Of a DNA stretch of 64,000 nt, positions 24,692 to 43,325 are shown in pieces. The stretch is from the NCBI GenBank assembly GCA_029551395.1, contig JAKPFN010000106.1, positions 1 through 64,000 on the forward strand. Direction: 5' to 3'. The DNA is from Armatimonadota bacterium (lineage in GTDB: Bacteria; Armatimonadota; UBA5829; DTLH01). The notes under the pieces are model-generated. The model was not told where the DNA came from, ran no database searches, and saw only the letters and a list, made by a program, of their open reading frames with translations. Position 1 is the stretch's first letter. Each line of letters starts with the position of its first letter. A program made the translations under genes and the position numbers.

Positions 24692-24804
24692 GCAGGAGCA
24701 ATTGAATAGCTTGACGCGATGGTAATATGACTGACTATTATATAACATGCAAATTCATTGCCTGTGATACAGTTTAAGTCAGATAGAGGAAAAATATGCT
24801 CTAC

Positions 24805-25167
24805 CTCGGGAGAAATTTACAATTTTCCCTCGGGAGAAATTTGCAATTTTTCCCGGACAAGCTATCTTTACAGGCAAGCTCTCGGGGGAAATTTGCAATT
24901 TCCCTCGGACAAGCAGCCTCCTCTCGGGAGGGATTTGCAATCCCTCCCGGACTGATAGCTAAAGAATCTGTGATTCCGGATGATTATCTAAATACCAAGG
25001 AACGGGATTGCAAATCCCTTCCCGTCATGCTGAACTTGTTTCAGCACCTCCTAACAGCCATGAGACCCTGAAACAAGTTCAGGGTGACTGCTAATCATAA
25101 ATATCAATAATCGGGATTGCAAATCCCTTGGTTACTTTTCCGGGCTAAATTGCAAATTCAGCCCGAG
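24805..25167. repeat. Composite palindromic repeat cluster, copy 1
   Basis: The 615-bp gap between the TPR gene and DUF3842 holds no gene but a dense array of 5-nt-loop palindromes. Three adjoining variants of a TTGCA-loop hairpin (24805-24828, 24829-24856, 24881-24908) are followed by a perfect one (24923-24950). Then come GAAT-CTGTG-ATTC (24964-24976), a GGGAT-TGCAA-ATCCC unit (25004-25018), a pair of CTTGT/ACAAG-loop hairpins (25028-25046, 25066-25084), another GGGAT unit (25113-25127) and GGGCTAAAT-TGCAA-ATTCAGCCC (25142-25164). The order is the reverse of copies at 33.1 and 41.9 kb. Confidence 0.85.
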
Positions 25168-25183
25168 AATAGGTGGTGATTTT

Positions 25184-33033: not shown

Positions 33034-33395
33034 CACATTCGGGCTACCACATCCACACTCGGGCCACTACACTCGGGCCCCACACTCGGGCTAAATTTGC
33101 AATTTAGCCCGGAAAGATAGCCAAGGGATTTGCAATCCCGATTATTGATATTTAAGATAATCATTCGGAATCACAGATTCCTCAGCTACTTATCCGGGAG
33201 GGATTGCAAATCCCTCCCGAGAGTACGAGAGTATATTGCGTCATCCTGAACTTGTTTCAGGATCTAAATCGAGATGCCGAAACAAGTTCGGCATGACGGT
33301 ATGGCCATCACCTTACACTCGGGCTACCCCACACTCGGGCTAAATTTGCAATTTAGCCCGAAAGAATAGCCAAGGGTTTTGTAATCCCGTTCTTT
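33034..33395. repeat. Composite palindromic repeat, copy 2, with iterated left arms
   Basis: The proS-argA gap (449 bp) holds no gene. Three truncated left arms ending in TCGGGC (33038-33080) precede a full composite: GGGCTAAAT-TTGCA-ATTTAGCCC (33088-33110), GGGAT-TTGCA-ATCCC (33125-33139), GGAAT-CACAG-ATTCC (33167-33181) and CGGGAGGGAT-TGCAA-ATCCCTCCCG (33195-33219). Two CTTGT/ACAAG hairpins follow (33243-33263, 33274-33294), then another iterated left arm (33317-33323) and a second partial copy (33331-33390) whose last hairpin is degraded. Confidence 0.85.
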
Positions 33396-35102: not shown

Positions 35103-35286
35103 GATGCTGAATCAAGTTCGGCATGACGAAAAAACGTCATTCTCCATCTCTCGTGAGGGATTTGCAATCCCTCACGGCCAAGCAAGCGAGGAATCTGTGA
35201 TTCCGGTTTATGATTTGAAGCATTAATGACCGGGATTGCAAATCCCTCAGCTATCCTTCCGGGCTAAATTGCAAATTTAGCCCGAG
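35103..35286. repeat. Composite palindromic repeat, copy 3 (reverse orientation)
   Basis: In the ispG-rseP gap (491 bp, no gene). Units are ATGCTGAA-TCAAG-TTCGGCAT (35104-35124), CGTGAGGGAT-TTGCA-ATCCCTCACG (35152-35176), GGAAT-CTGTG-ATTCC (35190-35204), GGGAT-TGCAA-ATCCC (35232-35246) and GGGCTAAAT-TGCAA-ATTTAGCCC (35261-35283). The stem CGTGAGGGAT differs from other copies (CGGGAGGGAT) but is fully complementary within itself. Confidence 0.85.
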
Positions 35287-35321
35287 TGTAGAAACAAGTT
35301 CAGCATGACGTACATTAACGG

Positions 35322-41936: not shown

Positions 41937-42077
41937 ACACTCGGGCTGAATTTGCAATTTAGCCCGGAATAGTGGATAAGGGATTTGCAATCCCGATTGT
42001 TGATATTTAAGATAATCATCTGGGATCACAAATCCCTCAGCTGCTTATTCGGGAGAAATTGCAAATTTCTCCCGAAA
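41937..42077. repeat. Composite palindromic repeat, copy 4
   Basis: A full copy lies between rpsB and the SIS gene, in a gap of 444 bp that holds no gene. Units are GGGCTGAAT-TTGCA-ATTTAGCCC (41943-41965, one G-U pair), GGGAT-TTGCA-ATCCC (41980-41994), GGGAT-CACAA-ATCCC (42022-42036) and CGGGAGAAAT-TGCAA-ATTTCTCCCG (42050-42074). The third and fourth stems differ from copy 2 with paired changes. A decayed relative lies at 41881-41915. Confidence 0.88.
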
Positions 42078-42920: not shown

Positions 42921-42953
42921 CAAGTGCGGAGTGCGGAATGCGGAATGTGGAAT
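42921..42953. repeat. Heptamer tract (right of SIS gene, inverted)
   Basis: CAAGTGCGGAGTGCGGAATGCGG and onward is, read in reverse complement, the same tract as 42117-42150, with one heptamer fewer and a few substitutions. A third copy is at 43286-43309. Confidence 0.72.
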
Positions 42954-42972
42954 AAGGGAGATGCGGAAAATT

Positions 42973-43150
42973 ACTCTCGGGGCTGTCTACTCTCGGGCCT
43001 ACTACTCTCGGGCTAAATTTGCACCTACTCTCGGGCTAAATTTGCACCTACTCTCGGGCTAAATTTGCAATTTAGCCCGGAAAATAGCCGAGGGATTTGC
43101 AATCCCGGTCATTGATACATCAGATGATTATACAGAATCACAGCTCCCTC
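42973..43150. repeat. Composite palindromic repeat, copy 5, with five iterated left arms
   Basis: In the SIS-DUF169 gap (467 bp, no gene). Left arms starting ACTCTCGGG repeat at 42973, 42989, 43004, 43027 and 43050. The third and fourth are identical 23-bp units ending in the middle of the hairpin loop (TTTGCACCT). The fifth continues into the complete GGGCTAAAT-TTGCA-ATTTAGCCC hairpin (to 43080). A GGGAT-TTGCA-ATCCC unit (43092-43106) and a damaged third hairpin follow, and the fourth hairpin is absent. Confidence 0.85.
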
Positions 43151-43185
43151 AGCCTTACTATCTGTCCCCGGACGAGTGGTAATGT

Positions 43186-43239: not shown

Positions 43240-43325
43240 TTATGCACAATTTTTACTTAACAGTTACTCATACCTCATACCTGAGATTCCGCACTCCGCA
43301 TTCCGCATTTGATAGGCTCCGTATT

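Follow-up and report, generated by a model that had tools for sequence, protein, structure and literature searches.

Outward arrays of half-arms at both ends of a REPIN-like element in an Armatimonadota genome

At 42972-43080 of the DNA considered here, partial copies of a hairpin arm stand in tandem before one complete hairpin. What is the unit that is repeated, at which ends of the element is it repeated and by what process? The window, the whole stretch of 64,000 nucleotides analysed, is contig C15 of a draft genome of 3.58 Mb in 165 contigs, 98.7% complete. The genus is represented by this genome only, and the family's one other genome has diverged too far for comparison at the same locus. 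A preliminary description of the window had proposed abortive copying that stops at the hairpin loop, either by replication slippage at a cruciform or in a REP-type transposition step.

The array at 43 kb and its element family

Arm starts of the CTCGGG type occur at 42976, 42992, 43007, 43030 and 43053, all five with TACT on the 5′ side. The iterated half-palindromes described at 42973-43080 are therefore real, with the count amended from five copies of the arm before a hairpin to one complete left arm preceded by four partial ones; the full hairpin, CGGGCTAAATTTGCAATTTAGCCCG, forms only at the last start. Two identical 23-bp units had been said to break off at the loop, and these are found at 43003-43025 and 43026-43048 with the break point one base beyond the TGC loop. 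Both outer copies are cut off sooner, after CTCGGG and after CTCGGGC. The array constitutes the left end of a 141-bp element with four hairpins, and the members of this family recognized in the window are listed below.

42972-42987, + strand: extra copy 1, outermost; TACT + CTCGGG + GCTGTC, the tail unlike the arm
42988-43002, + strand: extra copy 2; TACT + CTCGGGC + CTAC, break within the stem
43003-43025, + strand: extra copy 3; 23-nt unit TACTCTCGGGCTAAATTTGCACC, break just beyond the TGC loop
43026-43048, + strand: extra copy 4; 23-nt unit of the same sequence as copy 3
43049-43176, + strand: element proper; N4 (the four nucleotides 5′ of the hairpin) is TACT, complete hairpin 1 at 43054-43079, hairpin 2 is GGGATTTGCAATCCC
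33034-33080, + strand: three outward partial left arms, hexamers at 33038, 33058 and 33072, preceding the element at 33081-33221
33081-33221, + strand: complete 141-bp element with four hairpins, CACA-CTCGGG ... CCCGAG
33218-33233, + strand: small iteration on the right, (C)CGAGAGTA CGAGAGTA, outward of the right end of the preceding element
33314-33329, + strand: one outward partial left arm, TACA-CTCGGGCTACCC
33330-33389, + strand: left half-element, hairpins 1 and 2, right end not found
35150-35290, − strand: complete element, no iteration
41937-42076, + strand: complete element, no iteration
25102-25175, − strand: left half-element, hairpins 1-2, among the other hairpins of a mosaic at 24800-25175

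The right half of the element at 43049-43176 is degenerate; it ends at about CGAG (43173-43176) and its right terminal hairpin carries an internal deletion. The same pattern of half-palindromes had been reported at 33038-33110 and 33317-33360. Partial arms are indeed present there (three extra at 33034-33110 and one extra at 33314-33360) but they break in the stem and not in the loop.

Other palindromic sequences accompany these elements. The mosaic at 24800-25175 extends over 370 bp and combines several hairpin variants (GGGAGAAATTTGCAATTT..., GGGGGAAATTTGCAATTTCCC). The whole element at 43 kb is bracketed by another inverted repeat, TGCGGAATGCGGAATG..., which consists of iterated GCGGAATG units (42925-42953 and 43286-43307). 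Another palindromic family (GTCATCCTGAACTTGTTTCAGGATCT ... AGATGCCGAAACAAGTTCGGCATGAC) is seen at 33239-33298 and 25015-25085, one copy lying inside an element of the 141-bp family. Arms are fused to GGGGCTGTCTCAAAAGTACTG, which resembles the terminal repeat of a different insertion sequence, at 42976-42987 and upstream of the element at two further loci (L044 and L056). Rfam gave no match within positions 24000-44500 of the window.

Genome-wide, the arm with up to three mismatches gives 232 matches, against 10 for a reversed control pattern, far above chance. The element (CTCGGG...CCCGAG) is present in about 100 copies, and alignment of copies defines the four hairpins of the 141-bp unit as CTCGGGCTAAATTTGCAATTTAGCCCGG, GGGATTTGCAATCCC, GGAATCACAGATTCC and CCGGGAGGGATTGCAAATCCCTCCCGAG. 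The collected set holds 98 left ends and 66 complete units. Placement is extragenic, as seen within the window. When near-identical copies at different loci are compared the right tetranucleotide is kept and the left one varies; in 13 such pairs, which represent few independent lineages, the match at position −1 is 0.38 on the left and 0.69-0.92 on the right. At four loci (L074, L182, L184 and L185) the outer arm of some hairpins is swapped, from the loop outward, for (A)CTTTCGACAGTACTG, an exchange observed in both genomes of the family.

Iteration at both ends and the boundaries of the unit

Is iteration confined to the left arm, as the preliminary description held? The window itself holds a right-hand case (33218-33233), and genome-wide 44 of 98 left ends carry outward left-arm copies while 26 of 66 right ends carry outward right-arm copies. 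Because this sample had been retrieved with left-arm queries, a second was drawn on the exact right hairpin alone, and here 14/27 right ends and 11/23 left ends are iterated. Arms of opposite orientation are rare and mostly part of neighbouring elements. Iteration proceeds outward from each terminal hairpin, at both ends and with about equal frequency, which rules out a left-only polarity; such equality is the outcome that the preliminary description, in suggesting a survey of other copies, had itself named as incompatible with its proposal. The left-only impression at 43049 arose partly because that copy has lost most of its right hairpin.

Could the arrays be artefacts of assembly, with tandem repeats collapsed or misassembled from short reads? 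The genome is a draft and some contig ends do fall in these elements. The arrays however span about 40-110 bp, unequal units and unique flanks are common among them, and two other draft genomes of the order contain comparable arrays, so that this explanation is hardly credible.

The start of the repeated unit lies four nucleotides outside CTCGGG, and in most cases the unit does not extend past the loop. Outermost and next copies agree at positions −1 to −4 (on the right 0.69-0.92 compared with 0.33-0.41 after shuffling) and fall to background at −5. In a stricter chain, limited to exact motifs, agreement is again in excess at −1 and −2 for either side and, for the right side, at −3 and −4 as well; the left-hand −3 and −4 are so conserved that they carry no information, and −5 on the left displays a marginal excess (p 0.05). 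We caution that the p-values are optimistic, since the samples partly share ancestry and mutation affects arms, flanks and copies alike.

Most 3′ breaks fall 6 to 16 bases into the arm, where 16 marks the end of the TGC loop. The idea that copying stops at the loop survives in part, the loop being one among several preferred break points, and a minority of units hold a whole hairpin. The base directly before N4 at the junctions is C in 49 of 76 cases on the left and 32 of 47 on the right, leaving about one-third of junctions without C. Counting distinct fragments, 38/61 on the left and 28/40 on the right end in C, where the C content of the arm is 16% and 8%, respectively. The boundary of the element itself, between −5 and −4, reads C|T in 45 of 97 left ends (background 5%), with C at the right boundary in 37 of 63. 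The C that ends a fragment is frequently not an arm base, as in TTTGC|C|N4 at five loci. In arrays with at least two extra copies the unit lengths are unequal in 29 of 41, and therefore the events recur.

Replication slippage or template switching is the main rival to joining by a RAYT (REP-associated tyrosine transposase). Here the nascent strand would stop in the arm or loop, jump to a position outside the hairpin and recopy the arm, with the element still mobilised by a RAYT and no transposase taking part in iteration. Tandem direct repeats beside strong palindromes and stops at the loop are what slippage would leave, uniform arrays such as L101 and L086 resemble slippage expansion, and CTA, shared by flank and arm, offers slight microhomology on the left side. 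Slippage predicts variable 5′ boundaries with microhomology, however, whereas the boundary observed is fixed at −4 with background beyond, overlap at the junctions is near chance level and the C rule is left unexplained. In addition, related palindromic elements in another genome of the order (G018) carry no iteration. We regard slippage as an unlikely origin of the arrays as a whole. Slippage at a cruciform, as first put forward, may explain the minority of uniform arrays but not the fixed 5′ boundary, the absence of extra homology or the C rule. Given its fixed start and the C rule, the unit is not a random slippage product.

A fixed outer and a variable inner boundary extending up to the loop, at both ends, would also result from staggered nicks, one placed four nucleotides outside the hairpin base and the other in the arm or loop of the extruded hairpin, followed by fill-in and end joining to give a tandem duplication. 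Against this, no Ku gene was detected in the 98.7%-complete genome, and the C preference is unexplained unless it is the RAYT that makes the nick. This route is improbable, more so than slippage.

A RAYT gene between the same ends

What, then, mobilises the family? On contig C39 (L064) its two ends lie 700 bp apart and enclose an intact gene for a RAYT of 186 residues. Aligned with the 141-bp consensus, the left end is identical at 61 of 70 bases and the right at 50 of 62. The gene was missed by Pfam, the protein being below the Y1_Tnp cut-off, and was spotted by reading the sequence adjoining a half-element. The protein matches NCBIfam REP_Tyr_transpos (NF047646.1) with 86.1 bits (cut-off 80). 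The HUH histidines, His59 and His61, and the catalytic Tyr141 are invariant in ten relatives belonging to the same bacterial order, and the HUH/Tyr residues align with those of TnpArep (4er8), a weak match. In common with RAYT systems, this is a RAYT-family protein with an HUH motif and a catalytic tyrosine, and palindromes repeated in the genome flank its gene. The conserved GTAG tetranucleotide 5′ of the hairpin is absent; N4 differs among loci, left ends having (C)TACN, with CTAC in 28 of 97, and right ends being pyrimidine-rich. Since the gene sits between the same ends, the 141-bp units, with two inverted terminal hairpins, two inner ones and about 100 copies, are, judging by layout and sequence, most likely REPIN-like derivatives that a RAYT element produced by losing its gene.

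The matches to Pfam Y1_Tnp (an IS605 TnpA and two others) were considered as mobilisers and rejected, as unrelated hairpins flank them. Other Y1-type loci in the genome are a TnpA-TnpB pair of the IS605 type and four further Y1/RAYT-like genes, all accompanied by unrelated hairpins of their own (C29, L057; C109, L058; C84, L115; C162, L310; C126, L318); at L310, units of about 50 bp are repeated in tandem upstream. Beside the RAYT element at L064, positions 1590-1840 contain a second copy in which complete right-terminal hairpins stand in tandem as units of about 40 bp, so whole-hairpin iteration is also found.

Three genomes of other genera (G014, G017 and G018) encode relatives of the RAYT with 60-65% identity, in the same layout of two hairpins either side of the gene. 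In G018, inverted-pair matches mark gene-less copies of about 150 bp.

A MITE moved by a DDE-type transposase, with a 4-bp target duplication and with nested or deleted copies leaving half-ends, might be considered in view of the inverted termini and the four-base repeats beside each half-arm. No target-site duplication was found when direct matches of left and right flanks were sought at the boundary (k 2-10) and at all offsets of 0-14, and the family carries a Y1/HUH-type RAYT rather than a DDE gene. We consider a DDE-type origin very improbable.

The reading we prefer, with a probability of about one half, is that half-arms may be made by repeated RAYT cleavage and strand transfer in which an element end is joined to an aborted copy of itself. 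The full element would comprise hairpins 1-2, the gene and hairpins 3-4, the gene-less derivatives being 141 bp, and each terminal hairpin would act as a REP-like recognition site. The transposase would place its nick directly behind a C, with four nucleotides left between the nick and the hairpin (C|NNNN-CTCGGG...). The 5′-linked end would then be joined to a C-ended 3′ end from another copy of the same element end, this donor being a nascent or cleaved strand that ends at the loop or within the outer arm. Joining of this kind would leave NNNN + CTCGGG + a portion of the outer arm as a direct repeat and, with the same site on opposite strands at the two ends, iteration would be outward at both. 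Once two copies are present ordinary slippage could expand the array, and probably does so secondarily.

That the transposase performs the cuts and joins, and the order of these steps, are inferred from the sequences. The junction C and the C|T boundary match the RAYT rule for cleavage and joining and are suggestive of it. The fit to RAYT chemistry is incomplete because the junction C is often added and not derived from the arm, so that cleavage at Cs already present would account for the junctions only in part. Within arrays on the right, the innermost extra copy is closer than the outermost to the element's own N4 in 10 of 10 informative cases, which fits birth of new copies beside the hairpin or an outer flank derived from the target. 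With family ends flanking a RAYT gene, a fixed 4-nt boundary and a C| rule at the junctions, the REP-type transposition step is the better of the two mechanisms first proposed.

Relation to known systems and significance

The REPINs or REP doublets of Bertels and Rainey (2011, PMC3116915) are likewise high-copy, gene-less elements with inverted terminal palindromes, a RAYT gene lies between the same palindromes and no target duplication is seen. They differ in having two REPs in about 71-110 bp as opposed to four hairpins in 141 bp, and their ordered clusters consist of whole REPINs with flanks, whereas here there are outward tandem half-copies of the terminal REP. REP/BIME sequences with TnpA-REP (E. 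coli, S. maltophilia, Marinomonas) also involve an HUH/Tyr protein (PMC8266576). TnpA-REP cleaves C|T (C|A in Marinomonas) beside the REP and the 3′ base joined must be C (PMC8266576); the boundary and the junctions described here agree with such cleavage behind a C on the 5′ or the 3′ side of the hairpin. A conserved 5′ GTAG tag, reported to tolerate change in some systems (PMC8266576), belongs to REP/BIME and not to the present element.

IS200/IS605 elements resemble the family in their terminal hairpins and in the lack of target duplication. In IS200/IS605 the left cleavage tetranucleotide derives from the target and the right one from the element, and the left tetranucleotide that varies while the right is shared in a few near-identical copies here may point the same way. 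Unlike IS200/IS605, the present element has inverted near-symmetric ends with the hairpin right at the end, and a transposase of the RAYT branch. Foldback-type elements also have terminal inverted repeats made of tandem subrepeats; here the units are 10-25 bp, have a fixed 4-nt start and are located at a RAYT element.

Similar outward half-arms occur at a RAYT end in G001, where TGATGTCGGGGGAAGTAA units precede GTCGGGGGAATCCCTTCCCCCGAC. In G009 several of the 22 palindromes that were read carry them too, with a shared flank longer than 4 nt. No half-arm iteration was seen at about 25 loci read in G014, G017 and G018 (gene-less copies in G017 and G018), so iteration is not universal for such ends. 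A partial literature search found no description of half-REP iteration. As far as this search goes, iterated terminal half-arms that all begin 4 nt outside the hairpin are an undescribed variant.

How RAYT proteins spread REPs in vivo is an unsettled question, and in-vitro work on TnpA-REP has covered cleavage and strand transfer only (PMC8266576). We suggest, more tentatively than the mechanism itself, that RAYTs may leave a chromosomal record of failed strand transfers, in the form of outward half-REP arrays at either terminus of the element, each copy starting at a fixed 4 nt and joined through a terminal C, across several genera of a single order. Should the arrays be products of slippage instead, they would represent an unusually regular, palindrome-driven tandem duplication. 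If they are RAYT products, one genome holds well over 100 natural junctions, which would record the position of the cut, the joining rule and the direction of growth of a reaction that could be tested by sequence and plasmid assay.
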